Below, piece by piece: positions 8,102 to 41,844 of a DNA stretch of 64,000 nucleotides. Position 1 is the first letter of the stretch. The number at the start of each line of letters is the position of its first letter. The notes beneath the pieces were generated by a model. The model saw nothing but the letters and a program-made list of their open reading frames with translations. It was not told the DNA's origin and made no database searches. Origin of the DNA: Robiginitomaculum sp. (GTDB lineage Bacteria; Pseudomonadota; Alphaproteobacteria; Caulobacterales; Maricaulaceae); contig JAJFFO010000020.1 in the NCBI GenBank assembly GCA_021776615.1, positions 62,001 to 126,000 of the forward strand, in the 5' to 3' direction. The position numbers and the translations under genes were made by a program.

Positions 8102-8139
8102 GTCATATGGTAATGGGGGCTTGCGGTTAAGTGCCGATA

Positions 8140-9654: not shown

Positions 9655-9671
9655 GAAATTGGAGCACCGGC

Positions 9672-12786: not shown

Positions 12787-12815
12787 TAATTTGTGCCGGT
12801 TTGGACAACTAAGGC

Positions 12816-13625: not shown

Positions 13626-13662
13626 CTGTCACCTATACCTCGTTTAAAAAGGACTTTCCGCC

Positions 13663-14001: not shown

Positions 14002-14020
14002 TAATATCTAATTTTTGATA

Positions 14021-14051
14021 AAAAAAGGGGACCCATCGGGTCCCCTTTTTT
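14021..14051. terminator. Bidirectional rho-independent terminator
   Basis: A stem AAAAAAGGGGACCC paired with GGGTCCCCTTTTTT closes on a 3-base loop between convergent grxD and rpsD. A- and T-tracts lie on both sides, so it can stop transcription in both directions. Confidence 0.92.
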
Positions 14052-14067
14052 GTCCTGCGATATTCGA

Positions 14068-14685: not shown

Positions 14686-14869
14686 ATCTGTCCCTTTATC
14701 GTGTCGCGGGCCGGCGTTTTTTCTTTGAAAAACGCAATTGCAACGGCGGGTTCGCGGCTATCCGTCATAAAGCGCTAATGATAAACATCAGCGAAATGGC
14801 GGCGGAACATAACGCGGCTCGTCGGCATGTCAATGCGCGAAGGCATAAGGGTAGGGTAATAGCAAGGGT

Positions 14870-15967
14870 TTAGGCAGCTTTGGCATCTTGGGTGGATTTG
14901 CGCATTTGCCAAAACCGCAAAGTGCGCTCGGCAGTGCTTTTGGGAATGCTATCATAGGCATCACTTATCGCCGAGATGGCGGATAGGCCGGTCGACTCAC
15001 TCTTGCTCATCAACACTGTTAATGTAGCATATAAGTCTCTTGGGAAATTGGTTGCCTTACAGACAATAGCGGCTGCCTCGCCCTTGCCTGGTGTCCAGAC
15101 CCGCATTGCCGTGTCATAGTCCAGTCCGGTTAATTCCGCAAAAGCCAAATAATACCGGGTCATATGATTTCGACGCGCGAGCTCTGCCAACAAAGCTGGG
15201 GTTAGCGTCTTGCGTAGTTTTTTAGCGTCCACAAAGGCGCGAGCCTCGTCAAAATCTGCGGGCTTTTGGTCCTTATCGCAAATCTGGTTTCTGGCCTGAG
15301 CAAATGCGCGATCCAATTCTGCTTCGGGAATTTTTGCATTACGCTCCATAATCCTTTCGCGCAAACGGTCTTCAACAAAAAAATACATTTCATTGAGTAA
15401 GTCCGGCGGCAGGTCTTTGTGATTGACCAACGGTGCTTGCAAAGCGTTTTGCTTTTCGGATTTGCTGACCAAAGTTTCCATTGAGTCGCGCGAAAAGCTG
15501 GCGCCGCTATTTTTAGTGAGGGCGATCAATGTGTTGGTGTCGCCTTTGGCGACGATGGCACCGGTAACTTCCTCACTCAATCGGGTCCGGGCAGAGATCG
15601 CCCGCATATGTATCTGGCCGCGATCGGCAACGATATTGGTAAGGTCAACATCACTTAAAACTGGCGAGTGCCGTAGCACCGGATCAGACACTTCAATGTC
15701 GTCATGGGCGAGTTGGCGGATTAGGCCCGGTGGTGCGGTGCTGGTACGCGCAAATCGAGTGGCAATTTCCTTGCGCAATTCGGTGTCCATCTCTTTGGTG
15801 ATGGTCGACAGAATATCGTCAAAATGTTTACCCGTACTGCCGAAGGATTGAGTTTCGTCGTCGAAAAAAAGGTCAGTCACTTCGCGCAAAAGCTCGCGCC
15901 GTCTTTCACTGGATTTTTCCTGGGCAAGATCTAATAGGCGATCAAAACGTTTTACCTTTTCGGTCAT
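14870..15967 (-). CDS. DUF2336 domain protein
   Basis: A 365-residue protein of the alphaproteobacterial DUF2336 family, largely helical with HEAT-like repeats (for example DIEVSDPVLRHSPVLSDVDL, then repeated VAKGDTNTLIALTKN units). There is no signal peptide or membrane segment, so it is cytoplasmic. Family members often occur near signalling or flagellar genes, but no function is assigned. It lies downstream of the penicillin-binding protein gene on the same strand, 86 bases away, separated by a weak terminator-like hairpin. Confidence 0.75.
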   Translation of the reverse strand: MTEKVKRFDRLLDLAQEKSSERRRELLREVTDLFFDDETQSFGSTGKHFDDILSTITKEMDTELRKEIATRFARTSTAPPGLIRQLAHDDIEVSDPVLRHSPVLSDVDLTNIVADRGQIHMRAISARTRLSEEVTGAIVAKGDTNTLIALTKNSGASFSRDSMETLVSKSEKQNALQAPLVNHKDLPPDLLNEMYFFVEDRLRERIMERNAKIPEAELDRAFAQARNQICDKDQKPADFDEARAFVDAKKLRKTLTPALLAELARRNHMTRYYLAFAELTGLDYDTAMRVWTPGKGEAAAIVCKATNFPRDLYATLTVLMSKSESTGLSAISAISDAYDSIPKSTAERTLRFWQMRKSTQDAKAA

Positions 15968-18538: not shown

Positions 18539-18779
18539 CCGGGGATTGTTTTGCATAAACTCCCGCCTTCATAACGGTAAGGCGCTGAAAACAAGCCAAT
18601 AAATTTTCGAATGTGGAATGATATCCGAGGGGGGCGCTACTCGGGTAGACTACGTCCATGGTCAGGAAATGCGGTTGAGGCCGGATTTTTAATAAAACAT
18701 CCTGATCGTAGCCGCTTCTTTTAAGCGCAACAGTTATCAACATCACGATGGGAGATGGGCGGCTCCCAAAGGAGTGCGT
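18539..18779. promoter_or_regulatory. Leader region of the GTA cluster
   Basis: A 241-base gap between the YcgN gene and GTA g2 with no open frame long enough to be g1. It has a small hairpin CGCTT-N5-AAGCG at 18713-18727 and GGGAG-N8-CTCCC at 18750-18767 just before the AAAGGAG box. The cluster promoter must lie here or further upstream. No TTAA-N7-TTAA CtrA-type site was found. Confidence 0.45.
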
Positions 18780-20147
18780 TTGTCTGCCACAGCCCCGGTG
18801 CTTCATGCGGCCTTCATTGCGCGATTGGGGCTGCGCAAGGTGAAAACATTTGCCCAGAACCTGTCGACGGCGGAAGTGCGGTTTTTGACCTTTTATTGGC
18901 CGTTTTGGGCACGCGAAAATCAGCTCCCGCCCACCGGGGAATGGAAAACCTGGCTGTTGATGGGCGGCCGCGGGAGCGGCAAGACTCGGGCCGGGGCGGA
19001 GTGGATTCGCGCACAAGTGGAAGGTTCCAGCCCGCTGGCCAGTCCACGCAGCAATGGCGTTGGTGGCCATAAATGCCGCCGGGTCGCGCTGGTTGCGCCG
19101 ACACTACACGATGCCCGTGAAGTTATGATCGAAGGCGATTCTGGTTTGCGCCGGTGCAGCGCCCCGGATTTCCGTCCGGTGTTTAGCGCTTCGCGCCGGC
19201 GTCTGGAATGGCCTAATGGCGCGGTAGCGTACATTTATTCGTCCGAAGACCCAGATTCCTTGCGCGGGCCTCAGTTCGAGTGCGCGTGGTGTGACGAATT
19301 TTGCAGTTGGACCCATGTAGAACGCACATTGGACATGTTGCGCTTTGGTCTGCGCCTTGGCGACTTACCGCGCACGGTGGTTACCACGACGCCGCGGCCA
19401 ATTGCACCATTGCGGCAAATGTTGGCGGAGGCGTCAACCGTAGTGAGCCGGGCGCGCACGGGCGACAATTTACTACTGTCGAAAAGCTTTTTAAGCGAGA
19501 TTGAACACCGCTATGGCGGCTCGCTCCTCGGTCGACAAGAAATGGAAGGCGAGGTGATCGAAGACCCGGCAGGGGCTTTGTGGAATCGTGACCAGATTGC
19601 CGCTGCTTACGACCTGTCGCCGCCCGCCTTTGAACATATTGTGGTCGCGGTAGACCCGCCGGCCAGTATTGGCGAAAAGGCGGCGGAATGCGGCATTATT
19701 ATTGCCGGAATGAGCCGCCGATCGGGAGCGGCGCATGCCTGGGTTTTGGCGGATCGTTCTATTCAGGGCGTTAGCCCGGAAGCATGGGCCAAAGCGGTCA
19801 TGCAAGCTTATGTCGACTTTGAAGCCGATGGCGTGGTTGCCGAAGCCAATCAGGGCGGTGAAATGGTCCGTACTATTCTTAATCTCGCCGACCAAAATGC
19901 GCCAGTGAAGCTGGTCCATGCAAGTCGCGGTAAGCATGTGCGGGCGACGCCAGTGGCGGCGCTATACGAACAGAACCGGGTGCGCCATTGCGGCCGGTTC
20001 CCGGTTTTGGAAGACCAAATGTGTGCCTTTGGTGTCGACGGATTGGTCGCTGCCAAAAGCCCGGACCGGGTGGATGCTTTGGTTTGGGCCATTACGTCCC
20101 TGGTGCTGGATTTGAAAAATGGGCCGCGTTTGCGCGCCCTAATGTGA
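18780..20147 (+). CDS. GTA g2: large terminase subunit
   Basis: A DNA-packaging motor of about 455 residues. The ATPase part has a Walker A motif MGGRGSGKTRAG (near residues 61-72) and a Walker B region with AWCDEF. The C-terminal RNase H-like nuclease has acidic residues in IVVAVDPPAS, VVAEANQGGEMV and SPDRVDALVWAI. TTG at 18780 sits five bases after an AAAGGAG box. The in-frame GTG at 18774 overlaps that box and is less likely. No small terminase gene lies directly upstream. The frame ends eight bases before the portal gene. Confidence 0.9.
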   Translation: MSATAPVLHAAFIARLGLRKVKTFAQNLSTAEVRFLTFYWPFWARENQLPPTGEWKTWLLMGGRGSGKTRAGAEWIRAQVEGSSPLASPRSNGVGGHKCRRVALVAPTLHDAREVMIEGDSGLRRCSAPDFRPVFSASRRRLEWPNGAVAYIYSSEDPDSLRGPQFECAWCDEFCSWTHVERTLDMLRFGLRLGDLPRTVVTTTPRPIAPLRQMLAEASTVVSRARTGDNLLLSKSFLSEIEHRYGGSLLGRQEMEGEVIEDPAGALWNRDQIAAAYDLSPPAFEHIVVAVDPPASIGEKAAECGIIIAGMSRRSGAAHAWVLADRSIQGVSPEAWAKAVMQAYVDFEADGVVAEANQGGEMVRTILNLADQNAPVKLVHASRGKHVRATPVAALYEQNRVRHCGRFPVLEDQMCAFGVDGLVAAKSPDRVDALVWAITSLVLDLKNGPRLRALM

Positions 20148-20155
20148 GGAAGATA

Positions 20156-21313
20156 ATGTTCAATTTCTTTTCCAAGGTCTTCGCGCGTCCGCCTGAGGCA
20201 AAGCAGAGCGCCGCGCGCGGATTAATAACATTGAATTTGCAGGGCCAGGCCGCCTGGACGCCGCGTGACTATCTGGCCTTGTCGCGCGAGGGTTTTGCGC
20301 AAAATGCCATCGTCTATCGGTGTGTGCGCATGATTGCGGAGGCGGCCGCGTCGGTGCCATTGCAAACGGCCCACAACGACGTTAGCGCGCTTTTGCACAA
20401 GCCTAATGCAGAACAAGATCATGCCGAGTTTTTGGAGGCGCATTTCGGCTATTTGTTGCTCTCTGGCAACGGCTATATCGAGCTGGTAGCCTTGGATGGC
20501 GTGCCGCGGGAAATCTATACCTTGCGCCCTGACCGAATGAAGGTGGTGCCGGGTTCCAGCGGGCGACCGGGCGGGTGGGAGTATAGTGCCGGTGGTCGCA
20601 AACTAAGGTTTGACCGGCATTTGCATGCTGAACAAAGCCCAATATTGCATATGCGCTTGTTTAATCCCGCCAATGATTATTATGGGCAAAGCCCAATGGA
20701 GGCCGCGGCTTTTGCCGTGGATATTCATAATGCCGGGGCCAAGTGGAATAAGGCTTTGTTGGATAATGCCGCCCGCCCATCAGGGGCGTTAGTGTTGGCA
20801 GCGGCCAATAGCGACAGGCTAAGTGAAGAACAATTTGAACGCCTTAAGGCCGAACTTGCAGATGTGCATCAAGGGTCGCAAAATGCTGGACGCCCAATGT
20901 TGTTGGAGGGCGGGCTGGAATGGAAGCCCATGTCCCATGCGCCGGCGGATATGGAGTTTTTGCAATCGCGTAATGCCGCCGCCCGCGAAATCGCCCTCGC
21001 TTTTGGCGTGCCGCCAATGTTGCTGGGGATTCCGGGGGACAATACCTATGCCAATTACCGCGAGGCGAATTTGGCATTTTGGCGACAAACCATATTGCCA
21101 TTGGTGCGCAAGAATGCCCGCGCATTTGAAAATTGGCTGACACCGTGGGTTGGTGCCGATGTCTCTATTGAGGTTGCGGAGGAAAATATACCGGCGCTGT
21201 GCGAGGACGTTAGCGCCAGATGGCAGCGGATATCGCAAGCTGATTTTCTAAACGATAGTGAAAAGCGTGAACTTGCCGGATTAGCCAAAGAACCCAAAGG
21301 TGTCACGCTATGA
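20156..21313 (+). CDS. GTA g3: portal protein (HK97 family)
   Basis: A 385-residue portal subunit forming the dodecameric ring through which DNA enters the head. HK97-portal features include ITLNLQGQAAWTPRDYLALSREGFAQNAIVYRCVRMIAEAAASVP, a mid region with AKWNKALLDNAARPSG, and ALAFGVPPMLLGIPGDNTYANYREANLAFWR near the C-terminus. ATG 20156 has GAGGA upstream. The frame is open upstream inside g2, but that part is a shadow. Its TGA overlaps the g3.5 ATG. Confidence 0.93.
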   Translation: MFNFFSKVFARPPEAKQSAARGLITLNLQGQAAWTPRDYLALSREGFAQNAIVYRCVRMIAEAAASVPLQTAHNDVSALLHKPNAEQDHAEFLEAHFGYLLLSGNGYIELVALDGVPREIYTLRPDRMKVVPGSSGRPGGWEYSAGGRKLRFDRHLHAEQSPILHMRLFNPANDYYGQSPMEAAAFAVDIHNAGAKWNKALLDNAARPSGALVLAAANSDRLSEEQFERLKAELADVHQGSQNAGRPMLLEGGLEWKPMSHAPADMEFLQSRNAAAREIALAFGVPPMLLGIPGDNTYANYREANLAFWRQTILPLVRKNARAFENWLTPWVGADVSIEVAEENIPALCEDVSARWQRISQADFLNDSEKRELAGLAKEPKGVTL

Positions 21314-21561
21314 CGGAGAGCACCAAAGGCGCTCCGGCGTGGCGCGTGGACAGCCACGTGAACTTCGCCCTTATCGTCACCATTATCGCGCAAACTGCGG
21401 CGGCTTCATTGTGGGCCGGGGCGGCGGCTGAACGGATCAGCCAGTTGGAGCGTCGCACGGCCAATCAGGGCGCGGTTGCAGAACGGTTGACCCGTCTGGA
21501 AGAGCAAATGGATCAAGCGCGGGCATCGCTCACGCGGATCGAAGAACGCCTCAGCCGTTAG
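21310..21561 (+). CDS. GTA g3.5: small membrane/coiled-coil protein
   Basis: An 83-residue protein. It has a short hydrophilic N-terminus and one predicted membrane helix (about residues 18-38, FALIVTIIAQTAAASLWAGA), then a coiled coil (ISQLERRTANQGAVAERLTRLEEQMDQARASL). It occupies the g3.5 position between portal and protease, as in other RcGTA-like clusters. Layout resembles a small holin- or spanin-like protein, but no function is established. It overlaps the portal stop by four bases. Confidence 0.75.
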   Translation: MTESTKGAPAWRVDSHVNFALIVTIIAQTAAASLWAGAAAERISQLERRTANQGAVAERLTRLEEQMDQARASLTRIEERLSR

Positions 21562-21576
21562 GGTAATGACTCTCAA

Positions 21577-21605
21577 TATAATCCATATACGTAATAAGGT
21601 ATTAC
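21577..21605 (+). promoter_or_regulatory. TATAAT box and palindrome before GTA g4
   Basis: The 48-base gap between g3.5 and g4 contains TATAAT (21577-21582) and a perfect inverted repeat GTAATA-AGG-TATTAC (21591-21605). The AGG at its centre is part of the only plausible Shine-Dalgarno of g4, so the hairpin could hide the ribosome site, or the repeat could be an operator. No good -35 is visible. Confidence 0.5.
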
Positions 21606-21609
21606 AGAT

Positions 21610-22080
21610 ATGAAAGAAAATAAAAAAATCACGCATATCGCGGGGTATGCCTCACTATTTGATCAGCGAGACCTTTCCAACGATTTGGTGCGTCGCGGGG
21701 CCTATTCGGCTTCTTTGCTTGGTCGCGGATCAAGTGGAATTCGCATGTTGTTTCAACATGATGCAAGCGAACCTATTGGCGTTTGGGACTTGATTAAAGA
21801 GGACCATCGCGGACTATTTGTCCAAGGCAGGGTGTTCAATGAAGGCCCGGTAGGGCGCATGGCCGCCGCTTTGGTCAATCGCGGTGCCATTGATGGTTTG
21901 TCGATAGGGTTTCGCACAAAAAGGGCAAAAAAACACGCCCAAACCCGAGAGCTTCTCGAAATTGAATTGTGGGAAATATCCATTGTTACTTTTCCCATGT
22001 TGCCGCAAGCGCGCCTGAGCGTTGTGGCGAATGCCGGGCGTGCAGCGCCCCACCCCATGGCTGTTTCGATGGCCAGCTAA
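21610..22080 (+). CDS. GTA g4: prohead maturation protease (HK97, U35/S78)
   Basis: A 156-residue head maturation protease that cleaves the capsid N-terminal delta domain. Characteristic features are IAGYASLFDQRDLSNDLVRRGAY, MLFQHDASEPIGVW with the catalytic His, and GLSIGF with the likely catalytic Ser followed by LWEISIVTFPMLPQA. ATG 21610 follows AAGG by ten bases, with a palindrome over that box. The capsid gene follows by 20 bases. Confidence 0.92.
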   Translation: MKENKKITHIAGYASLFDQRDLSNDLVRRGAYSASLLGRGSSGIRMLFQHDASEPIGVWDLIKEDHRGLFVQGRVFNEGPVGRMAAALVNRGAIDGLSIGFRTKRAKKHAQTRELLEIELWEISIVTFPMLPQARLSVVANAGRAAPHPMAVSMAS

Positions 22081-22100
22081 CCCAGAAAATGAGGACTATT

Positions 22101-23327
22101 GTGAAAAAGGAAAACAAGATGGCGTCTACGCCGTCCGCACTGGCCTATGGAATGGACGAATTTCGTGGCGCCTTTGAAGCGTTTAAGGAAGCCAATGACC
22201 GACGGCTGGCCGAGATTGAGAAAAAACAATCTGCGGATGTTCTGAGCACCCAAAAGGTGGATAATATTGATCGTGCTCTTAACGAACAAAAGGCGGCGTT
22301 GGACCGTATCAGTCTCGACCGCCATCGTCCGGCGCTTGAAGCCCCAACCACCCACATGCAAAGCGAAAGTAAGCAGGCGTGGGGGCGGTATATGCGTCAA
22401 GGCGATGTCAGCCGATTGCTGGAATCCAAACAACTTTCTGCCGGTTCTGATCCCGATGGTGGTTTTGTCGCCCCCGATGAAACCGCACAGGAAATTACCC
22501 GGCTTTTGGAAGATTCTTCCCCTCTTCGGCGGATTGCTGAGGTGCGGCAGGTTGGTTCTTCCAACTTTAAAAAACCAATTAGCCGGGGCGGTGCGGCCGC
22601 TGGCTGGACTGGAGAGACAGATGCCAGGGCGGAAACACAAACCCCGACTTTGGATTTGATCGCCTTTCCGGCCGCAGAGCTATATGCGATGCCGGCGGCA
22701 ACCCAAACCTTGCTGGACGATAGCCTTTCCGACATCGACCAATGGCTGGCGGCAGAGGTGCAGGACGTATTTGCGGCGCAAGAAACCGCGGCTTTTGTCA
22801 ATGGTGATGGCATTGGCAAGCCCAAAGGGTTTTTATCCTATGTCAATGCCGCCGATGCGGCACAGCAATGGGGTGAAGTTGGTTATGTGGCTACCGGCGT
22901 GGATGGTGATTTCGCTGCCACCGACCCAGTAGATTCGCTCATTGATCTTATTTACGCACCCAAAGCCGTGTATCGGCCAAATGCGCGTTTTGTGATGAAC
23001 CGCCGCACGGTTTCGGCGGTTCGCAAGTTCAAAGACGCAGATGGTAATTATATCTGGCAGCCGGCAAATGCCGCCGGGCAACCCTCAACCCTTTTGGGCT
23101 ATGCGGTTACCGAGATTGAGGAAATGCCGGGCATTGCGACCGATACGACCGCCATTGCTTGTGGTGATTTTCGCCGTGGCTATCTGATCGTTGATCGGGC
23201 GGGCGTGCGGGTGGTGCGTGATCCCTATTCGTCCAAACCATTTGTGCTGTTCTACACCACCAAAAAAGTCGGCGGTGGGGTGCAGGACTTTAACGCCATC
23301 AAACTTCTGAAATTCGCTCTGAGCTAA
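22101..23327 (+). CDS. GTA g5: major capsid protein (HK97 fold)
   Basis: A 408-residue HK97-type capsid precursor. An N-terminal coiled delta domain (FRGAFEAFKEANDRRLAEIEKKQ) is followed by the mature shell domain starting near SKQAWGRYMRQGDV. Later motifs include LSAGSDPDGGFVAPDETAQEI, a typical N-arm start, and VVRDPYSSKPFVLFYTTKKVGGGVQDFNAIKLLKF at the end. GTG 22101 gives the family-like start KKENK and has GAGG six bases upstream; ATG 22119, after AAGGA, is the alternative. A hairpin follows the gene. Confidence 0.93.
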   Translation: MKKENKMASTPSALAYGMDEFRGAFEAFKEANDRRLAEIEKKQSADVLSTQKVDNIDRALNEQKAALDRISLDRHRPALEAPTTHMQSESKQAWGRYMRQGDVSRLLESKQLSAGSDPDGGFVAPDETAQEITRLLEDSSPLRRIAEVRQVGSSNFKKPISRGGAAAGWTGETDARAETQTPTLDLIAFPAAELYAMPAATQTLLDDSLSDIDQWLAAEVQDVFAAQETAAFVNGDGIGKPKGFLSYVNAADAAQQWGEVGYVATGVDGDFAATDPVDSLIDLIYAPKAVYRPNARFVMNRRTVSAVRKFKDADGNYIWQPANAAGQPSTLLGYAVTEIEEMPGIATDTTAIACGDFRRGYLIVDRAGVRVVRDPYSSKPFVLFYTTKKVGGGVQDFNAIKLLKFALS

Positions 23328-23348
23328 CCCCCCTAGGCTCAAGGTGAA

Positions 23349-23380
23349 GGGCGGACTGCTGGGTAAACTGGCGTCCGCCC
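23349..23380 (+). terminator. Hairpin after the capsid gene
   Basis: GGGCGGAC (23349-23356) pairs with GTCCGCCC (23373-23380) across a 16-base loop, followed by ATACTTTTAT. It sits in the 85-base gap between capsid g5 and adaptor g6, one of the largest gaps in the cluster. It may act as a partial terminator or as an mRNA 3'-end stabiliser that keeps capsid mRNA in excess. Confidence 0.55.
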
Positions 23381-23412
23381 ATACTTTTATATGATAAAAT
23401 AAGGATGGAGCG

Positions 23413-23970
23413 ATGAGCCTGCAAGTCGTGCTGCCGCCAGTTGCTGACCCGGTTTCGCTGGCCGAAACCAAAAAATTTTTACAAGTGGATTCCGACCATG
23501 AAGATGGGTTAATCGCCGACCTGATTGCTGCCGCCACCGAGGCAGTCGAGCGGCGCACCGGTCTGATCTTGATCAGCCGCACCTTGCGACAGACGGTTAA
23601 GGTTTGGCCAGAAAAAGGTGTTTTTGCCCTGCAAGCGGCCCCGCTCATTCAGCTATTACAGGTGCAATTTTTTGATGCTATGGGCGCGGCGCAGCTTGTC
23701 GACTCTACGGCCTATTATGTGGACGTTCAATTATCGCGCCTGATCGCGCTTGCCGCGTTTCCCTCTTTGCCTGTCAGCCATCCCGCGCAAGCCATTGAGA
23801 TCGATTTTACCGCCGGGTATGGCACCAGTCCAACTGCCCTGCCAGCCTCCTTACGCATCGCGGTTTTGTTGGTCGTGCGGGATATTTACGAGCACCGAGG
23901 CGAGCGAGACGGAACATTGCTGTTACGCGCGCAGGCCTTGTTGGCACCGTTCACACAGGTGCGCCTGTGA
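23413..23970 (+). CDS. GTA g6: head-tail adaptor (gp6/phiE125 gp8-like)
   Basis: A 185-residue connector subunit. The start MSLQVVLPPVADPVSLAETKKFLQVD, the segment IADLIAAATEAVERRTGLILISRTLRQTV and the later IEIDFTAGYGTSPTALPASLRIAVLLVVRDIYEHRG match head-tail connector proteins that bind under the portal. ATG 23413 has an AAGGATGGAG region just upstream. Its TGA overlaps the g7 GTG start. Confidence 0.88.
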   Translation: MSLQVVLPPVADPVSLAETKKFLQVDSDHEDGLIADLIAAATEAVERRTGLILISRTLRQTVKVWPEKGVFALQAAPLIQLLQVQFFDAMGAAQLVDSTAYYVDVQLSRLIALAAFPSLPVSHPAQAIEIDFTAGYGTSPTALPASLRIAVLLVVRDIYEHRGERDGTLLLRAQALLAPFTQVRL

Positions 23971-24290
23971 CGCCCCCGATCAAGCTTACTCACCGGGTGA
24001 TGGTGCAGCAATTGAGCACCGTGCCGGATCAAGGCGGTGGTCAGGCGCGGCTTTGGAGCGACTTTCGCGAAGTTTGGGCAAATGTGAAATGGAATTCGGT
24101 CGGTAGCAGCAGTGAAAATGGTGCGCTGGGGCAGGGGCGAAGGGCGTTGCTGACTCTGCGGTGGGCCAGCGATTTGCCAGATCCCCTGCGCCTGATCATT
24201 GGCGGCAAGACCTTCCGGTTTCGGGGTAGCACGCGATTGAAAATCGGTGCCGGTGAATTTTTGCAAATCGAATGTGAGGAAAGTTTCTAA
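23967..24290 (+). CDS. GTA g7: head-tail joining protein
   Basis: A 107-residue stopper-type adaptor of the phage head-tail joining family (LTHRVMVQQLSTVPDQGGGQARLWSDFREVWANVK, then LRLIIGGKTFRFRGSTRLK). It starts with GTG overlapping the g6 stop and ends with TAATG shared with g8, so all three adaptor genes are probably translated in a coupled way. Confidence 0.85.
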   Translation: MTPPIKLTHRVMVQQLSTVPDQGGGQARLWSDFREVWANVKWNSVGSSSENGALGQGRRALLTLRWASDLPDPLRLIIGGKTFRFRGSTRLKIGAGEFLQIECEESF

Positions 24291-24706
24291 TGGAAACAAA
24301 TGCGCAGTGGGCCGTGCAAAAGGCGCTGTTGGCAATGCTCAATGCGGATACCAGTCTTGGCCCGATTCTTGGCAGTCCGGTGCGGCTTTATGATGACATA
24401 CCAGATCAACCTCAATTTCCTTTCGCTACCTTTGATCGCGCTACCGCCAGTCCGATAGAAGCCGAGCGTCCCGGCGCTTTTGAGCATGTGATGACATTAA
24501 AATTGTGGTCGCGTTACGGCGGCAGGCGCGAAGCTTTGGAAGGCCTGCACGGTCTGCGAGATGCCATAGATGATGCCGCCCTTGTTCTCGATGGGCACCA
24601 TCTTGTCGGTATTAGGACGACTTTTTCAGATATTTTCCGGGTACGCAGCAGCCGTGTTTTTGAGGCAATTCTCACATTACGCGCTGTCACAGAACCCCTC
24701 ATTTAA
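24290..24706 (+). CDS. GTA g8: tail terminator/completion protein (DUF3168)
   Basis: A 138-residue DUF3168 protein that probably caps the tail tube at the head end. Family features are AVQKALLAMLNAD, RLYDDIPDQPQFPFATFDRATA, and LKLWSRYGGRREALEGLHGLRDAIDDA. It is the third of three tightly packed adaptor genes and is followed 18 bases later by the tail tube gene. Confidence 0.87.
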   Translation: METNAQWAVQKALLAMLNADTSLGPILGSPVRLYDDIPDQPQFPFATFDRATASPIEAERPGAFEHVMTLKLWSRYGGRREALEGLHGLRDAIDDAALVLDGHHLVGIRTTFSDIFRVRSSRVFEAILTLRAVTEPLI

Positions 24707-24724
24707 ACCAGAAGGAATTGCGCA

Positions 24725-25141
24725 ATGGCAATGCAGCGTGGCAAGGATATCTTGCTAAAAATGGAAGACCCGGCGGGGACCTCCGCCTATCTCACTGTCG
24801 CCGGGCTGCGCGCCCGCACCATTTCTCTTAACGCGAAGACTGTGGATACGACCAATGCCGACAGCGTCGGGGCCTGGCGAGAGCTGCTGCCCGGCGCCGG
24901 GGTGAAATCGGCCTCTATATCCGGGGCTGGCGTGTTTACCGATTCAGCGGCGGATACAGCCATTCGCGCGGTTTTCTTTGGGCAAGAGGCCCGAAAATGG
25001 CAAATCATCATACCGGATTTTGGCACGCTTGAAGGAGCCATGCTGATCGCCGCTCTGGAATATGCTGGCGAGTTTGATGGAGAGGCCGTGTATAGCCTTA
25101 CATTGGCCTCCGCTGGTGCCATCAGTTTCACCGCCTTATGA
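24725..25141 (+). CDS. GTA g9: major tail protein (TP901-1 family)
   Basis: A 138-residue tail-tube subunit. Hallmarks are the N-terminal MAMQRGKDILLKMEDPAG, DTTNADSVGAWRELLPGAGVKSASISGAGVFTD, and the terminal GEAVYSLTLASAGAISFTAL typical of TP901-1/RcGTA tube proteins. A clear AAGGAA ribosome site precedes ATG 24725. It overlaps g10 by four bases. Confidence 0.9.
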   Translation: MAMQRGKDILLKMEDPAGTSAYLTVAGLRARTISLNAKTVDTTNADSVGAWRELLPGAGVKSASISGAGVFTDSAADTAIRAVFFGQEARKWQIIIPDFGTLEGAMLIAALEYAGEFDGEAVYSLTLASAGAISFTAL

Positions 25142-25443
25142 GCGCTCTCAATCGCGCACGCGGCGAAACCTGCCTTAAAATCAATGGCAAAACTCATACG
25201 CTTTGCTTGACCATGGGCGCGCTGGCGCAGATCGAGGCATCGTTAGATGCGGATGGACTGGAAGCTTTATCACAACGTCTTCGCCATTTAAGCGCTGTGG
25301 ACATTCTGGCGGTGTTGGCGGCCTTGCTTATGGGCGGCGGCAATCCGCTGGACGATGAAAAATTGCGATCCGCACAAATTGATCCGCAAGAAACTGCCGA
25401 AGCGGTGGCCATGGCATTTTCTCTTGCGGTGCGTGAGGCGTGA
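25138..25443 (+). CDS. GTA g10: tail assembly protein (GTA gp10 family)
   Basis: A 101-residue protein in the conserved g10 place after the tail tube gene, with the family pattern GETCLKINGKTHTLCLTMGALAQIEASLDADGL. By position it resembles the first of the two tail assembly chaperones made before the tape measure in long-tailed phages. It starts within the g9 stop (ATGA) and its own stop overlaps g10.1 (GTGA). Confidence 0.82.
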   Translation: MSALNRARGETCLKINGKTHTLCLTMGALAQIEASLDADGLEALSQRLRHLSAVDILAVLAALLMGGGNPLDDEKLRSAQIDPQETAEAVAMAFSLAVREA

Positions 25444-25631
25444 GCACGGTGCCATGGGGGCAAATTCTGCAAAGCGCCCACCGAATGTTTGGCCTGCTTC
25501 CGGCGCAGTTTTGGGCGTTATCGGTCTATGAATGGCGGGCATTGCAGGCCCCGCAAAGCGGTTATGCCGATCGCCGGTCCCTTGGCAATTTGATGGGCCA
25601 ATACCCCGATAAACCTGAAGAGGTAAAGTGA
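25440..25631 (+). CDS. GTA g10.1: small tail assembly chaperone-like protein (DUF2376)
   Basis: A 63-residue protein starting from GTG inside the g10 stop. The pattern PWGQILQSAHRMFGLLPAQFWALSVYEWRAL is that of the small phage tail assembly chaperone family found just before the tape measure gene in RcGTA-like clusters. In many siphophages the two chaperones are joined by a programmed frameshift; here they are separate overlapping genes. Confidence 0.8.
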   Translation: MSTVPWGQILQSAHRMFGLLPAQFWALSVYEWRALQAPQSGYADRRSLGNLMGQYPDKPEEVK

Positions 25632-25632
25632 G

Positions 25633-26166
25633 ATGGATATTCCCGATACCGGCACTGCAAATGATCCGACCAAAGAGGCCGGTGAAGCTTTGCAGGCTTT
25701 TGCAAATGGCCCGGCGCGCAATGCCGCTGATGCCCTGTCTCAGGTGTTTTCCCGTGCCGGCAATCGTATTTCTGCGGAACTGGAAAAAGCGGCGCAAACC
25801 GGAGAGCTCTCTTTTCGCAATATGGTGGAGTCAATTTTAAACGACCTCGCCCGTGTCGCTATCAACGATGTGATTGGCGGCGTGCTGGGCGGTGTTTTGG
25901 GTCAAGCGCTTGGTAGCACATTTGCTGGTGCCCGGGCCGAGGGTGGGCCGGTTTTGCCCGGCGGTGCGTATTTGGTTGGTGAGCGCGGGCCAGAGGTTTT
26001 TACGCCGAGTAGTGCGGGCAATATTGAGGCCAATGTTTCCAAGCCTGGTCTGGTGGTGAATTTCAATCTTGGTGAAGGCGCGGACATTGACAGTTTTCGC
26101 CGCTCACAAGGGCAAATTTCTGCGCTGCTTGCCCGCGCGGTCGAGAATGGCAGGAAACGGTTATGA
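25633..26166 (+). CDS. GTA g11: short tape measure protein
   Basis: A 177-residue protein. It has a helical N-terminal two-thirds, a small hydrophobic glycine-rich segment (IGGVLGGVLGQALGSTFAG, near 85-103), and the tape-measure C-terminal motif EGGPVLPGGAYLVGERGPEVFTP. It is very short for a tape measure, in keeping with the short GTA tails, and somewhat shorter than the about 219 residues I recall for R. capsulatus. GAGG lies upstream of the ATG. Its stop overlaps g12. Confidence 0.85.
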   Translation: MDIPDTGTANDPTKEAGEALQAFANGPARNAADALSQVFSRAGNRISAELEKAAQTGELSFRNMVESILNDLARVAINDVIGGVLGGVLGQALGSTFAGARAEGGPVLPGGAYLVGERGPEVFTPSSAGNIEANVSKPGLVVNFNLGEGADIDSFRRSQGQISALLARAVENGRKRL

Positions 26167-26801
26167 GCAATTTTCACGAGATTCAATTTCCCGCTTCGGT
26201 GTCATTTGCCTCCACCGGCGGCCCACAACGGCGAACCGAGATTGTCAGTTTGGCGTCTGGCGCGGAGGAGCGAAATTCGCCCTGGGAACATGCCAAGCGC
26301 CGCTATGATGCCGGGCTGGGTATTCGCTCCATGGACGATCTTCATGCGGTGTTGGCGTTTTTCGAGGCGCGCCGTGGTCAGTTATACGGTTTTCGGTGGA
26401 AAGATTTCACCGATTTTACCTCCGCTTTGCCAACCGCCACACCAAATGCGCAGGACCAAAATATTGGTGTTGGCGACGGTGTGACTAATATTTATGCATT
26501 GTCGAAAACCTATGAGCAGGGCGTTCATAGTTATACGCGCCCGATTACCAAGCCGCGCGAAAACTCGGTGTTGCTGGCGCTTAACGGTACCCTGCAACAA
26601 GAAGGTGTGGATTATACCGTTGATCACGCACAGGGCAGCATTTCTTTTATCGGCGCCGCGCCGCCAAATGGGGCGCTGATTACTGCCGGTTTCGAATTTG
26701 ATGTGCCGGTGCGCTTTGATACTTCATTTTTGAATATCACTCTTGAAGCTTTCAATGCCGGTGCCTTGCCTTCAATCCCAATTGTTGAGGTGCAGGTCTA
26801 A
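26163..26801 (+). CDS. GTA g12: distal tail protein (DUF2460)
   Basis: A 212-residue DUF2460 protein that caps the tail tube and starts the baseplate. Family patterns are FHEIQFPASVSFASTGGPQRRTEIV, RRYDAGLGIRSMDDLHAVLAFFEARRGQLYGFRWKDFTDF and the terminal FDVPVRFDTSFLNITLEAFNAGALPSIPIVEV. It overlaps g11 by four bases and shares a base with the g13 start. Confidence 0.9.
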   Translation: MSNFHEIQFPASVSFASTGGPQRRTEIVSLASGAEERNSPWEHAKRRYDAGLGIRSMDDLHAVLAFFEARRGQLYGFRWKDFTDFTSALPTATPNAQDQNIGVGDGVTNIYALSKTYEQGVHSYTRPITKPRENSVLLALNGTLQQEGVDYTVDHAQGSISFIGAAPPNGALITAGFEFDVPVRFDTSFLNITLEAFNAGALPSIPIVEVQV

Positions 26802-27664
26802 TGCGTACGCTTCCCGACGGCATGCAAGCAAATTTGGATGCCGGTGCAACGACGCTTTGCTGGTGTTGGAAAATTGTCCGCAAAGATGGTGTGGCGCTGG
26901 GCTTCACCGAGCATGATAGTGATCTGGTTTTTGATAATCTGACATGGAAAGCCCAAATTGGTTTGCGGCCCGGCGTGTTTGAAAGCGCGGTTGGGTTCAC
27001 ACCCGATACCGGCTTGACGGCGGGCGCGCTGCAACAAAGCGGTATCGCAAGTGATGATATCGACGCCGGTAAATACGATCAGGCGAGCATTGAAGTTTGG
27101 CGGGTGGATTGGCAGAAGACTGAGCACCGCATTGGCATATGGTCTGGCGAAATTGGTGACATCACCCGAGGCGAACACGCCTTCGAAGCTGAAATTGCTG
27201 GCCCGGCGCGTAAACTTGGCCGTACTTTTGGCCGGGTGTTTACCAAGGTTTGCGATGCAGAATTGGGCGATGGGCGCTGTATGAAAGATATCTCCGCCGC
27301 CCCTTTTTTACGCCCATCAGTGGTGGCGCGGGTGATGAATCCGTCTCAATTTGCCATTGAGGCGCTTAATGCCCCGCAGGCGGATTGGTTTTCTTTTGGC
27401 ATAGTAAAGTGGCTCGATGGAGAAAATGTCGGGCAGACCCATCGCATCGTGCAGTATTTTCGAAGCGGCGTTGAAGATGTGGTGACATTGGCCGAGTTAC
27501 CGGCAAAACCGATTGCCATTGATGACACTTTGGAATTGCTTGCCGGTTGCAATAAGACGCTGGATCACTGCGCGGACAAATTTGCCAATAGCGTCAATTT
27601 TAGAGGTTGCCCGTTCATGCCCGGCAATGATCTGATTATTGCCGGACCCGTCGAAAATTCATGA
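26801..27664 (+). CDS. GTA g13: baseplate hub protein (DUF2163/BR0599)
   Basis: A 287-residue hub protein. The N-terminal DUF2163 part includes ITRGEHAFEAEIAGPARKLGRTFGRVF, and the C-terminal BR0599 part ends in NSVNFRGCPFMPGND. Five cysteines sit at 151, 160, 250, 257 and 270. I recall that the R. capsulatus hub binds an iron-sulfur cluster through such cysteines, so this one probably does too. It is coupled to g14 by an ATGA overlap. Confidence 0.88.
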   Translation: MRTLPDGMQANLDAGATTLCWCWKIVRKDGVALGFTEHDSDLVFDNLTWKAQIGLRPGVFESAVGFTPDTGLTAGALQQSGIASDDIDAGKYDQASIEVWRVDWQKTEHRIGIWSGEIGDITRGEHAFEAEIAGPARKLGRTFGRVFTKVCDAELGDGRCMKDISAAPFLRPSVVARVMNPSQFAIEALNAPQADWFSFGIVKWLDGENVGQTHRIVQYFRSGVEDVVTLAELPAKPIAIDDTLELLAGCNKTLDHCADKFANSVNFRGCPFMPGNDLIIAGPVENS

Positions 27665-28101
27665 ATGCGATTAATGCCGACACACGGCGATGCGCCTTGC
27701 AAGAAGCAAAGCGTTGGATCGGGACGCCCTATCAACATCAGGCCAGTCTGCGCGATGTTGGGTGCGATTGCCTTGGCTTGGTGCGTGGCGTTTGGCGTCA
27801 TTTATACGGTGCCGAGCCCTATAGCGTGCCCGCGTACAGCGTGCATTGGGCCGAGACTGGGGATGCGGAAACGCTAATGCTGGCGGCGCGGCAATATCTC
27901 GAGGAAATCCCTGCTGATACGGCACAGGCCGGAGATGTCTTATTGTTTCGGTTTTCCGCCCACCATATTGCCAAGCACTGCGTAATTTTATCGGCACCAA
28001 CGCGCATGGTCCATGCCTATTGGGGGCAATGTGTAAGTGAAACATCGCTGACCCCATGGTGGCGCAAGCGTATTGCCGCCGCTTTCCAATTTAGAAATTA
28101 A
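27661..28101 (+). CDS. GTA g14: NlpC/P60 cell-wall peptidase
   Basis: A 146-residue papain-like peptidase of the baseplate, expected to cut peptidoglycan stem peptides during DNA delivery. The catalytic Cys is Cys37 in GCDCLGLVRGVW and the likely His is His106 in HHIAKHCVIL. The size and position after g13 match RcGTA. It is followed 12 bases later by g15, with an AAGAG box. Confidence 0.9.
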   Translation: MNAINADTRRCALQEAKRWIGTPYQHQASLRDVGCDCLGLVRGVWRHLYGAEPYSVPAYSVHWAETGDAETLMLAARQYLEEIPADTAQAGDVLLFRFSAHHIAKHCVILSAPTRMVHAYWGQCVSETSLTPWWRKRIAAAFQFRN

Positions 28102-28113
28102 AAAGAGTTTTCA

Positions 28114-31100
28114 ATGGCTGAACTTGCGCTAACTTTTGCTCAGCGTGCCGCGACCAGTGTTGCGCAGGGCTTTGCCGCCCGAGCTATTTCCTCGCTCTTG
28201 GCTAAGCGTCAAGATACCGGTGCGCGGTTGGATGAATTACACGTTTTATCGTCGACTGATGGTGCGCCCATGCCAATCCCGTATGGGCGGGTGCGATTGG
28301 GCGGCCAGGTTATTTGGGTTGATCAGCCGGTAGAACACCAGATTAATAGCCGGGCCGGGGGAAAAGGCGGCCCTCGTGTTTCCGAGCGAAAATACACCGT
28401 AAGTTTTGCCGTTGGCCTGTGTGAAGGGGTGATTGATGGTGTAGGCCGCATGTGGGCAGACGGCGCGCTTCATAATGGCAGTGCGGTCAACATGCGGGTT
28501 TATCTGGGTGATGAGGACCAGCTGGTTGATCCGCTCATTGAAACCAAAGAAGGGAGTGCCCGCGCCCCGGCCTTTCGTGGCTTGGCCTACATCGTCTTTG
28601 AAGGCTTTGCATTGGAAGATTTTGGCAATCGGATTCCGCAAATTTCCATTGAAGTTTTTCGCACTCCCAAGGGGTTTGGCTCGGAAAATGTTGAGGAAAA
28701 GATTCGCGGCGTGTCGCTTATTCCCGGCTCCGGCGAGTTCATCTACGCCACCGAGCCGGTCATCACCAATTTGGGTCCGGGAAAATCAGTAACCGAAAAC
28801 GTGCATTCTTTTCGCGGGCGACCCGATGTCGACATAGCTTTGGATGATCTGCAAACCCATCTGCCAAATTGCGACACCGTCTCATTGGTTATCAGCTGGT
28901 TTGGCGATGATCTGCGTTGCGGGAATACGCGGCTACAGCCTGCCGTTGAGACCGATGAAAAACAGACGGTCGATCTCGAATGGATGGTGCAGGAATTGAC
29001 CCGCACTCAAGTCCCTGTGGTCTCGAAAGATGCGCTAGATCGCCCTATCTTTGGGGGCACGCCGTCGGACAACTCGGTTCTGCAAACCATCGCTTCGCTC
29101 AAAATCCGTGCCTTAGAGGTGGTTTTCTATCCATTCGTTTTGATGGATATTCCCGAGCAAAATGGACTGGCTGACCCTTATGGAGCGCCGGAGCAAGCGG
29201 CTTTCCCATGGCGCGGGCGGATTACCTGTTTTCCGGCGCCTGACCAAGCGGGCACTGTGGACAAGAGCGCCAATGTGATTGCACAAATTGATAACTTTTT
29301 TGGCACAGCCAATGCCGCAGATTTTCAGTTTGGTGAAGATACGATTGTCTATAACGGGCCAAATGAATGGTCATATCGGCGCTTTATTCTTCATTACGCA
29401 AAATTGTGCGCGCTCGCAGGTGGTGTTGATGCGTTTATTATCGGCTCCGAGCTTCGCGCGCTGACCTTATTGCGCGATGGGGTCGGAAATTTCCCCAGCG
29501 TAGCGCATTTGCGCTCATTAGCGGCAGAGGTGAGGGCGATTTTGCCGGACACCAAAATCTCATACGCTGCCGATTGGTCGGAATATTTTGGCTATCAACC
29601 GGCAGACGGCTCGAATGATGTGCTTTTTAATTTGGATGAGTTGTGGGCGGATGCCAATATCGATTTCGTTGCCATTGATTGGTATGTGCCGTTGTCCGAT
29701 TGGCGTGAAGGCAATCAACATACTGATGCGGGTAGTTATAAATCCATTTATGACACGGCCTACCTTTCCGCCAATATTGAAGGGGGCGAGGGCTATGACT
29801 GGTTTTATGCCAGTGATGACGACCGGCAAAACCAATTGCGAAGCCCCATTGTGGACGGGGAATATGGCAAGGATTGGGTGTTTCGCTATAAGGATTTGCG
29901 ATCATGGTGGACGAATGCGCATTTTGATCGTCCCGGCGGTATTGAAGCGACAAGCGCAACCTCTTGGGTGCCTCAATCAAAGCCTATCTGGTTTACGGAA
30001 ACCGGGTGCCCGGCCGTTGATAAAGGGGCAAATCAACCCAATGTTTTTTTTGACGCCAAAAGCTCTGAAAGTGCATTGCCGCATTTTTCCCAAGGCCGCC
30101 GGGACGATTTCATTCAACGCGAATATTTGAACGCCAATGCGTCTTATTGGGTGCCGCAAACCGGCAATAACCCCATTTCATCGCTCTATAGCGGCCCGAT
30201 GGTCGATGCCGGTAAAATTCTGGCATGGACGTGGGATGCAAGGCCGTTTCCGCAATTCCCCGCCTTGATTGATGTGTGGGCTGATGGGCCAAATTGGGCA
30301 AGAGGGCATTGGTTTAATGGCCGAATGGGGCTGTCGTCGCTGGCGGCCCTAATTCAAGACGTTTGTTGGCGTGCCGGCGTAGTAAATGTGGATGTGTCCA
30401 GTGTGGAAGGCTTGGTGCCGGGTTTTGTGGTGACCGGGCCAACGGATGTCCGGGCGGCACTTGAAGCTCTGTTGGCCGTCTATGGGGTAGAGAGCGTTGA
30501 GGTGTTTGATGGATTGCGTTTTCAACACATTGACCGGCAGGCGGAAATTATACCGGTTCCGGTCAATGGTCATGTCGTGGAAAAAACGGCAACAAAGTTA
30601 GCGTGTACCATGCCCGATATTGAGACGCCTCCCATAGAAACGCGTATTCAATTTTCCGATGAAAGCGCTGACTATCAACCGGCCTCCGCGAGCGCCCGGG
30701 GCACAATGCCCGCCAAACGCCGGGTATTGGATATTGCCCTGCCTTTGGTTTCTGACCGTGAATTTATCTCTATTGCTGCGCGCGATGTCTTGTCACGCGC
30801 TATTGCGACGGCGCGGTCCGCCGGAATTGCTCTGCCGCCATCTTTTTTGGCTATCGAGCCGGGAGATTTGGTGCGGCTTGATTCTCTTGACGCGCATAAG
30901 GCGTGGCGCGTGGAAAAGACCGACGATGCGGCTTTTCGAGAATTGTCATTGCGGGCGCAAAGCCCGGCGTCAACGCTGGCGGGTGTTGCCGGAAACCCTT
31001 CATTGGGGCCAATGCCGGTCACCAATCCCGGTCCGCCGGTGGTGGCGGTTTTGGACATTCCTTTATTGCCGGGAGAGGCCGAGCGTTCGGGACCAAAAAT

Positions 31101-31962
31101 TGCTGCGTTTTCAGAACCGTGGAATGGCAGTATCTTGATTTCAGAACAAGGCAGTTTGAACCAGCGGGCCCGCCTGCAAACGCCGGCGATTATGGGCGAA
31201 GTGCTGGACGCGGTAGAGGCCGGTGGGGTTTTAGGTCGCTGGGACAATGCTACAGTCCTGAATATATCCCTTTATGGTGGCACCTTGTCTTCTGCCTCGC
31301 CTGATGATGTGCTTCGCGGCGCTAACACTCTGGCCATCGAGCACGCTAATGGCTCGTGGGAGGTGTTACAGTTTCAAAATGCCATTTTGACCGGCGCGGA
31401 TACTTACGCATTGTCGGGGCTTTTGCGTGGTATTGCAGCGTCGGACGATGCCCTTACCACTACAATTGCACAAAATGCCCTCTGGGTTTTAGTCGATGAC
31501 GCCAGCCAAGCCATGCCAATGCACGATTTTGAAATTGGTACCAATTTGCAATGGGTTGCCAGGTCAGCCAATGCTGAAATTGGCGGATTGGAGGAGCTGA
31601 ATTTTGCATTCACCTTCGCGGATCGGGTGTCACGCCTGCCATCGCCAGTTCATTTGCGTGCGGCCATCGGGATAGATGGCGTGCTGATTTCGTGGATATG
31701 GCGGGCGCGCCGAGGCGGTGATTTTTGGGGTCCGGCTGATCTGCCATTGGTTTCTACGCCAGAACGCTATCGTTTTGTGGTGTATTCTGTGGATAGTATT
31801 GTGTGGGAAGACATTGTGAGCGCTCCACAAACCGTGATGACAGATACACAAATTGACGCCTTATTCCCCAATGGTCGCCCGGCCAAACTGGACATTGGTG
31901 TTGCGCAAATCTCTTCGGTGAGCGGTGCTGGTGTTGAAGCACGGCAATTTGTATACATTTAG
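28114..31962 (+). CDS. GTA g15: megatron-type baseplate/host-interaction protein with TIM barrel
   Basis: A 1282-residue protein, the largest in the cluster. It has an N-terminal tail-tip part (PIPYGRVRLGGQVIWVDQPVE, then KYTVSFAVGLCEG), then a GTA TIM-barrel domain (YCAALA-like ILHYAKLCALAGGVDAFIIGSELRALT, YAADWSEYFGYQPADGSNDV, WFTETGCPAVDKGANQPN). The C-terminal half contains the phage tail 3 and fibre-binding parts. RcGTA g15 attaches fibres and lines the channel for DNA exit. The frame is intact over 3.8 kb. The cluster ends here, with no obvious terminator hairpin. Confidence 0.92.
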   Translation: MAELALTFAQRAATSVAQGFAARAISSLLAKRQDTGARLDELHVLSSTDGAPMPIPYGRVRLGGQVIWVDQPVEHQINSRAGGKGGPRVSERKYTVSFAVGLCEGVIDGVGRMWADGALHNGSAVNMRVYLGDEDQLVDPLIETKEGSARAPAFRGLAYIVFEGFALEDFGNRIPQISIEVFRTPKGFGSENVEEKIRGVSLIPGSGEFIYATEPVITNLGPGKSVTENVHSFRGRPDVDIALDDLQTHLPNCDTVSLVISWFGDDLRCGNTRLQPAVETDEKQTVDLEWMVQELTRTQVPVVSKDALDRPIFGGTPSDNSVLQTIASLKIRALEVVFYPFVLMDIPEQNGLADPYGAPEQAAFPWRGRITCFPAPDQAGTVDKSANVIAQIDNFFGTANAADFQFGEDTIVYNGPNEWSYRRFILHYAKLCALAGGVDAFIIGSELRALTLLRDGVGNFPSVAHLRSLAAEVRAILPDTKISYAADWSEYFGYQPADGSNDVLFNLDELWADANIDFVAIDWYVPLSDWREGNQHTDAGSYKSIYDTAYLSANIEGGEGYDWFYASDDDRQNQLRSPIVDGEYGKDWVFRYKDLRSWWTNAHFDRPGGIEATSATSWVPQSKPIWFTETGCPAVDKGANQPNVFFDAKSSESALPHFSQGRRDDFIQREYLNANASYWVPQTGNNPISSLYSGPMVDAGKILAWTWDARPFPQFPALIDVWADGPNWARGHWFNGRMGLSSLAALIQDVCWRAGVVNVDVSSVEGLVPGFVVTGPTDVRAALEALLAVYGVESVEVFDGLRFQHIDRQAEIIPVPVNGHVVEKTATKLACTMPDIETPPIETRIQFSDESADYQPASASARGTMPAKRRVLDIALPLVSDREFISIAARDVLSRAIATARSAGIALPPSFLAIEPGDLVRLDSLDAHKAWRVEKTDDAAFRELSLRAQSPASTLAGVAGNPSLGPMPVTNPGPPVVAVLDIPLLPGEAERSGPKIAAFSEPWNGSILISEQGSLNQRARLQTPAIMGEVLDAVEAGGVLGRWDNATVLNISLYGGTLSSASPDDVLRGANTLAIEHANGSWEVLQFQNAILTGADTYALSGLLRGIAASDDALTTTIAQNALWVLVDDASQAMPMHDFEIGTNLQWVARSANAEIGGLEELNFAFTFADRVSRLPSPVHLRAAIGIDGVLISWIWRARRGGDFWGPADLPLVSTPERYRFVVYSVDSIVWEDIVSAPQTVMTDTQIDALFPNGRPAKLDIGVAQISSVSGAGVEARQFVYI

Positions 31963-32012
31963 CCCTTTTTTCTGACCGCTAACACGCATAGATGTGGTGG
32001 GGGAGAAATGAT

Positions 32013-32921
32013 ATGGCTAAAGACCCTTACAAAATTCTTGGTGTTACAAAATCAACAAGCAAGGATGATATCCGTAAGGCCTATCGCAAATTGGCAAAAA
32101 AATATCATCCCGATATACGTCCAGGCGATGAAGCGGCTGAAACCAAATTTAAAGAAGCCAGCACCGCCTTTGCTTTGCTTAATAATGATGAAGAGCGGGC
32201 GCGCTATGATCGCGGCGAGATAGATGCTGAGGGAAATCGCGCCGGTGGGCAGGGTTTTCCCGGACAGGGGCAAGGGCAAGGTTTTCCGGGCGGATTTGCC
32301 CCCGGTGGTTTTGACGATATTTCAGATATTCTCTCTGATCTTTTTGGCAATCAACCGCGCGGCCGCGGTCGGCAAGGCTTTGCTTTTCGTGGCGATGATG
32401 TTCGCTACACTCTTGAGGTTGAGTTTTTGGAGGCCGTTAATGGCGCTTCAAAACAAGTGCGCATGAGTGATGGTAAGCAGCTTAAAATCGCCATTCCGCT
32501 CGGCACCAAGGATGCCGACCTCCTACGTTTGCGCGGGCAGGGCAAAGCTGGCGTTGGCGGCGCCCCCAATGGCGATGCCATCGTTGAGATCAAGGTTAAA
32601 CCTCACCAGCATTTCAAACGTGAGGGCAGCACAATACGGCTGGACCTTCCTATTACGCTGCAAGAGGCGGTGCTTGGCGGTAAGGTTTCTGTGCCGACAC
32701 CCGCCGGTGCGGTGACGTTAACGTTGCCCCCGAACACTTCCTCTGGAAAAGTATTGCGGTTAAAGGCTAAGGGCGTTCCCTCGCAAAGGGGGAAAAGTGG
32801 TGATATGATGGTCAGGCTTTTGATTGTATTGCCGGACGAGGTTGATCCTGAGCTGAAGAAGTGCCTTGCTGCGTGGATGCCAAAAGCGAATTATAATCCA
32901 AGGAAAAGCTTGGGCGGATGA
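32013..32921 (+). CDS. DnaJ-class co-chaperone without zinc finger (CbpA-like)
   Basis: A 302-residue Hsp40. The J domain includes HPD at residues 32-34 (KKYHPDIRPGD), and a G/F-rich linker follows (GGQGFPGQGQGQGFPGG). The C-terminal substrate-binding domains CTD I and II (GDDVRYTLEVEFLEAVNGASKQV, then TLPPNTSSGKVLRLKAKGVP) lack the CXXCXGXG zinc repeats of DnaJ. ATG 32013 has GGGAGA seven bases upstream; upstream in-frame codons have no family similarity. It stimulates DnaK ATPase. Confidence 0.92.
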   Translation: MAKDPYKILGVTKSTSKDDIRKAYRKLAKKYHPDIRPGDEAAETKFKEASTAFALLNNDEERARYDRGEIDAEGNRAGGQGFPGQGQGQGFPGGFAPGGFDDISDILSDLFGNQPRGRGRQGFAFRGDDVRYTLEVEFLEAVNGASKQVRMSDGKQLKIAIPLGTKDADLLRLRGQGKAGVGGAPNGDAIVEIKVKPHQHFKREGSTIRLDLPITLQEAVLGGKVSVPTPAGAVTLTLPPNTSSGKVLRLKAKGVPSQRGKSGDMMVRLLIVLPDEVDPELKKCLAAWMPKANYNPRKSLGG

Positions 32922-41810: not shown

Positions 41811-41844
41811 GCCTGTCGCGAGACCAGCGCGTTGTTCGGTTCTA

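Follow-up and report, generated by a model that had tools for sequence, protein, structure and literature searches.

A gene transfer agent cluster in an uncultured Robiginitomaculum-like bacterium and a candidate operator common to activator and lysis genes in part of its genus

The head-tail cluster

The window analysed here is a stretch of 64,000 nucleotides from a Robiginitomaculum-like MAG, an uncultured marine relative of Caulobacter that GTDB assigns to the Maricaulaceae (Caulobacterales), a family that also includes Hyphobacterium indicum and Robiginitomaculum antarcticum. The genome assembly (G000) totals 2.16 Mb in 25 contigs and is 71% complete. The nearest named loci belong to MAGs labelled “Robiginitomaculum sp.”, with capsid identity of up to 86%, which agrees with the proposal, made from the sequence alone, of a host outside Rhodobacterales. 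Between positions 18780 and 31962, the ORF list of the window contains 16 open frames, all co-directional on the + strand, that follow the order of g2, g3, g3.5, g4-g10, g10.1 and g11-g15 of the Rhodobacter capsulatus gene transfer agent (RcGTA). They are listed below with the region upstream and the host gene that follows.

18539-18779, + strand: upstream region, expected GTA promoter site (footprint; putative function)
18780-20147, + strand: g2, large terminase, 455 aa; TTG start after AAAGGAG; Terminase_6N/6C (PF03237 6.7e-29, PF17289 1.4e-20)
20156-21313, + strand: g3, portal; ATG start (alternative GTG 20144); Phage_portal PF04860 1.8e-84; RcGTA portal 6tba 9.9e-118
21310-21561, + strand: g3.5, small membrane/coiled-coil protein, from position and genus orthologs; weak Rz-like spanin match (PHROG E 5.5e-4)
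21610-22080, + strand: g4, prohead protease S78; Peptidase_S78 PF04586 1.8e-29
22119-23327, + strand: g5, HK97 major capsid; Phage_capsid PF05065 2.1e-91; RcGTA capsid Rcc01687 3.5e-94
23413-23970, + strand: g6, head-tail connector; Phage_connect_1 PF05135 1e-9
23967-24290, + strand: g7, head completion/closure; Phage_HCP PF05521 7.3e-13
24290-24706, + strand: g8, tail completion; Tail_completion_gp17 PF11367 1.6e-22
24725-25141, + strand: g9, tail tube; Phage_tail_2 PF06199 1.3e-45; RcGTA Rcc01691 1.3e-44
25138-25443, + strand: g10, tail assembly chaperone-like (GTA-gp10); Phage_TAC_11 PF11836 2.3e-16
25440-25631, + strand: g10.1, TAC_6, 63 aa; Phage_TAC_6 PF09550 7e-10
25633-26166, + strand: g11, short tape measure, 177 aa; Tape_meas_lam_C PF09718 1.1e-10; PHROG tape measures
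26163-26801, + strand: g12, distal tail protein; DUF2460 PF09343 4.4e-80; RcGTA Rcc01695 5.3e-79
26801-27664, + strand: g13, baseplate hub; Phage_phiJL001_Gp84_N and BR0599 (PF09931 1.9e-50); 6tba 2.8e-44
27661-28101, + strand: g14, NlpC/P60 cell-wall peptidase; NLPC_P60 PF00877 1.7e-8
28114-31962, + strand: g15, megatron, 1282 aa; GTA_TIM 2.7e-146, Phage-tail_3, Rcc01698_C; RcGTA megatron 6tba 7.7e-273
31992-32921, + strand: dnaJ/cbpA-like host gene, 29 bp downstream of g15; PF00226/PF01556

The Pfam domain expected from the RcGTA counterpart was found in 15 of the 16 genes; the remaining one, g3.5, matched no Pfam family above the cut-off and was assigned from its position and orthologs. RcGTA virion proteins were the best PDB matches of g3, g5, g9, g12, g13 and g15, the last of which carries the GTA-specific domains GTA_TIM and Rcc01698_C. 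For g11 and g14 the PDB matches were general tape-measure and peptidase entries only, and the PDB sequence comparison gave no match for g8. These domains and PDB matches bear out the sequence-only reading, which had described sixteen co-directional genes following the RcGTA order from terminase to megatron and had proposed a comparison with the R. capsulatus proteins. Its coordinates and its frames open over 13 kb were also right, including the start of g2 at TTG 18780 (the mechanical ORF begins at GTG 18774), and its eight overlapping junctions were counted again, with overlaps of 1-4 nt each and a ninth if g3 begins at GTG 20144 instead of ATG 20156. Since order and frames are kept in sister genomes, the arrangement is not due to chance. 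The cluster had moreover been called complete: g2 to g15 are indeed all present, but g1 is absent from the ~240 bp that separate g2 from the upstream CxxCxxCC gene (end 18538), so that the term is too strong.

Partner genes and promoters away from the cluster

In some other Maricaulaceae, a g1-like gene lies directly upstream of g2. Searched with a profile of these genes, sister genomes yielded a gene of ~190-260 codons that is unlinked to the cluster and whose PHROG matches are terminase small subunits (E 8e-6 and 4e-7). A second search, with this TerS-like gene itself, found it in 16 of the 18 genus genomes and gave a single weak match (G042, 1.1e-5) elsewhere among the 61 relatives; it was not found in G000, where the search covered an assembly 71% complete, nor in G006, also an incomplete genome. 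It adjoins ruvC in four of five loci, which are the four whose contig reaches that far. Taken together, the weak profile scores and the genus-wide co-occurrence make it likely, without proving it, that the gene beside ruvC is a TerS and that g1 was relocated or replaced.

A search elsewhere in the genome, as the sequence-only reading had advised, recovered the activator, the candidate spike gene and two lysis genes, but not g1. The genes gafY (Bac_DnaA_C) and gafZ (DUF6456) are adjacent with a 4-nt overlap (G000:C14 50155-51266), and a DUF2793 spike-like gene is located at G000:C1, ~9857-10615. The DUF2793 family, which we take to be tied to GTA spikes or fibres by likeness to the RcGTA head spikes, was detected in 53 of the 61 relatives, and its link to the spike is supported by co-occurrence, five of the six genomes that lack GTA_TIM also lacking DUF2793. 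The lysis pair (G000:C2 ~41585-42519) consists of an M15_4 (PF13539) endopeptidase gene overlapping a GTA_holin_3TM (PF11351) gene, and its neighbours are host genes resembling, by eye, methylmalonyl-CoA mutase and serine dehydratase. Among the 61 relatives, 16 of the 18 genus genomes have the holin, as does one genome of the Caulobacteraceae (G046); M15_4 was found in the same 16 and in four Caulobacteraceae genomes, and the two as a pair in this genus only; in G038, G042 and G058 (Caulobacteraceae), M15_4 lies ~1.7 kb from the DUF2793 gene. An endolysin of family GH108, presumably the RcGTA type, was not found in the window's genome, and a literature search returned nothing on M15 lysis in this connection.

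Several of these loci share promoter motifs. Upstream of g2, CGGGGATA occurs in 10 of 13 genus loci, the window's version being CGGGGATTG, and the footprint of this region includes a conserved GGGGCGCT..TCGGGTAG block. CGGGGATA is also present upstream of the DUF2793 gene and, inverted, upstream of gafY, where it lies within the final coding stretch of the PAS gene that precedes gafY. It may be a GafY site, and differs from ACTATG, the core of the GafY site in Caulobacter (PMC11150451). A second, DnaA-box-like motif, AACTTATCCGAC, was found in TerS-like promoters (5/7), DUF2793 promoters (4/9), g2 promoters (2/13) and the lysis promoter of G017; being post hoc and patchy, it counts as a lead only.

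In the footprint of the gafY promoter, AGGA-N6-TCCT stands out as an inverted repeat; each of the 17 genus genomes checked has it, as do G023, G034, G018 and G030, four other Maricaulaceae, and it recurs in 7 of 15 genus lysis promoters. The gafYZ promoter of Caulobacter, to which RogA binds, has GGAA-N4-TTCC inverted repeats (PMC9632790), and the repeat described here has the same spacing. As candidate operator for a RogA homolog we put forward TGTAGGAATGTTATCCTACA. A scan of 18 genomes for TRTAGGA-N6-TCCTACA detected 10 exact sites in six sister genomes, 6 at the lysis pair and 4 at gafYZ, and none outside these two promoters; since the motif had been noticed in the promoters before the scan, the latter adds only the absence of other exact sites. 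By simple base-frequency arithmetic, chance alone would give fewer than one exact palindrome in the 18 genomes, and allowing one mismatch brings in a few unrelated sites, roughly as many as the reversed-pattern control gives. This distribution suggests that, in some members of the genus, activation is coupled to lysis by a putative RogA-like repressor. The window's genome, its two nearest relatives (G017 and G003) and five more distant genus genomes show no recognisable palindrome in their lysis promoters; as the first three carry the repeat at gafYZ and not at the lysis pair, the coupling is not claimable for the window's species.

The overall arrangement could be that of a dispersed GTA of ~5 loci (the head-tail cluster, the small terminase beside ruvC, gafYZ, the spike gene and the M15-endopeptidase/3TM-holin pair), in which gafYZ and the lysis pair are both under a RogA-like repressor, whose operator has no further exact copy in several genomes; we judge this proposal to be evenly poised between right and wrong. 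That the M15/holin pair lies apart from the cluster, and that its promoter lacks the palindrome in the window's own genome, would also fit a pair serving a non-GTA role, as a prophage remnant or in autolysis, with an incidental sharing of the palindrome. This alternative is unlikely, considering that the exact palindrome is confined to gafYZ and the M15/holin pair in six genomes, that the holin belongs to a Pfam family named for GTA release, and that in a Caulobacteraceae genus (g21) an M15 gene is located ~1.7 kb from a DUF2793 spike-like gene.

Selection on the cluster, its inheritance, and gene loss in relatives

Pairwise dN/dS ratios (NG86) were 0.04-0.25 for the GTA genes against 0.013-0.12 for the flanking host genes in L035-L040, the closest informative pair; g15, not scorable in this pair, gave 0.085 in L033-L034, and dS was saturated in many wider pairs. 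As judged from these ratios, the scored cluster genes are under purifying selection. The sequence-only reading had supposed a selection to keep the particles: values far below 1 agree with its first half, but dN/dS does not tell which function is selected. The same ratios bear on the possibility of a relic, with structural genes intact and particles no longer made, or made empty since the loss of the packaging gene g1. The absence of g1 from both the cluster and the window's assembly and the loss of the capsid in some Maricaulaceae (G021, G025, G028 and G029) point in that direction; purifying selection, the retention of gafYZ, spike and lysis genes and the TerS-like gene found elsewhere in 16 of the 18 genus genomes point the other way and leave a relic very improbable.

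Clusters lacking some of these genes were observed in members of the family. In L065/L248 (G021, 4116-6861) and L067 (G031, 13179-15876), apparently the same deletion joins TerL residues 21-174 to g15 from residue 515. The C-terminal half of g15 (~790 aa) is open in three genera, L068 (G029, 13468-15885) included, with 54-60% identity and a dN/dS of ~0.26-0.46; the genomes with this remnant retain gafZ and DUF2793, and a capsid ortholog was not found in them. In L247 (G028, 6568-15798), unrelated host-type genes stand in place of g3-g14, g2 and g15 being still open.

GTA_TIM (g15) was detected in 55 of the 61 relatives and in all 18 genus genomes. Where contigs of the genus are long enough to show the flanks, the cluster occupies the same chromosomal site, with mtgA and the CxxCxxCC gene upstream and dnaJ, PepSY, response regulator and histidine kinase genes downstream. 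In the capsid tree, sequences group by host family and phage capsids fall outside. Distances between GTA proteins and between flank proteins are strongly congruent over 21 genomes (r=0.972, a value reached by 0 of 2000 permutations), with the flank genes, being linked to the cluster, not constituting an independent host marker. Inside the window, the flanks of the cluster further contain purB, purC, purL, glutaredoxin, ribosomal protein S4 (rpsD), penicillin-binding protein, EAL, histidine-kinase and two-component genes, gltX and peptidase M1. No integrase or replication module, which had been named as counter-evidence to a domesticated system, was recognised among the flank ORFs scanned in the window, and the domesticated nature of the cluster is upheld by the housekeeping flanks and the host-like capsid tree.

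Among the genuine phage genomes examined, the nearest was a circular one of 45 kb, from a Manatee Spring siphophage. It contains a colinear module that includes a GTA TIM-barrel gene, and its tape measure is ~700 aa long, against 177 aa for g11 of the window. The two phage records with the closest capsids, L252 (MW091529.1) and L253 (MW462191.1), each hold a GTA-like locus with host genes next to it. A siphoprophage related to GTAs, recently integrated or still active, could invoke the phage origin of the cluster genes and the module of the Manatee Spring phage, but this reading, rejected on the host flanks, the host-like tree and the conserved locus, is extremely improbable given that the flank ORFs scanned showed no recognisable integrase and no replication or other phage module, that housekeeping genes lie on both sides, that the locus position is constant across the genus, that the tape measure is so much shorter than in the phage relative and that the two “phage” records resemble GTA loci carried by host contigs. 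The cluster is very probably a functional-looking gene transfer agent of the RcGTA type, vertically inherited in Caulobacterales.

Four further observations were made on the loci compared. The dnaJ gene adjoins g15 in nearly all Caulobacterales relatives examined, other families included, and a literature search found no paper on this linkage. GTA-like clusters have been deposited as phage genomes or viral contigs, as for L252, L253 and many IMG/VR contigs. In the capsid tree, a GTA locus labelled Pseudanabaena biceps (L216) sits among Brevundimonas, probably through alphaproteobacterial contamination. Finally, one genus MAG (G008) holds two different GTA g15 copies, on C21 and C23, and is likely a chimeric bin.

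Comparison with known agents and implications for release

RcGTA-type clusters outside Rhodobacterales are common and already published: GTA-Hunter reported RcGTA-like head-tail clusters in 78% of Caulobacterales OTUs (Kogay 2019; PMC6821227), from which the window's cluster is not different in kind and, on that count, is ordinary. A literature search found no paper linking Robiginitomaculum with gene transfer agents. With RcGTA the system described here shares the g2-g15 order, its head-tail genes being homologous to rcc01683-rcc01698, homologous capsid, portal, tail tube, Dit, hub and megatron, the PF11351 holin family and an equivalent of GafA. It differs from RcGTA in its host order (Caulobacterales), in a cluster without g1, in an activator split into GafY and GafZ, and in the PF13539 (M15) endopeptidase paired with the holin, no GH108 having been found in the window's genome. 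With the agent of Caulobacter crescentus (CcGTA) it shares the split gafY/gafZ operon (PMC9632790), a DUF2793 gene, for which the Caulobacter control was positive, and an inverted-repeat operator at the gafYZ promoter. The two differ in lysis, Caulobacter having LypABC whereas here the M15/holin pair is present and shares the gafYZ operator in several sister genomes. C. crescentus, which lacks a holin-endolysin pair, relies on LypABC, whose genes CdxB represses along with gafYZ, and LypABC is missing even from many Caulobacter (PMC13236601).

By analogy with Caulobacter and R. capsulatus, GafYZ would act on the region upstream of g2 to switch on the g2-g15 operon, and the particles would package host DNA by a headful mechanism, be released by lysis and inject their DNA into kin through the g13-g15 baseplate. 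To this scheme we would add a small terminase supplied by the unlinked gene beside ruvC and, for some members of the genus, a repressor resembling RogA that would hold gafYZ and the lysis pair off jointly via TRTAGGA-N6-TCCTACA.

The cluster extends the known range of RcGTA-type agents to an uncultured marine genus, and the side result on lysis and its operator weighs more than the cluster itself. If true, the proposed control would constitute a two-target switch joining GTA activation to lysis, parallel to and independent of CdxB-LypABC in Caulobacter crescentus. A conserved lysis pair sharing a nearly private operator with gafYZ represents, for one lineage, a concrete candidate answer on release, and suggests that the release machinery was swapped while the activator was kept.
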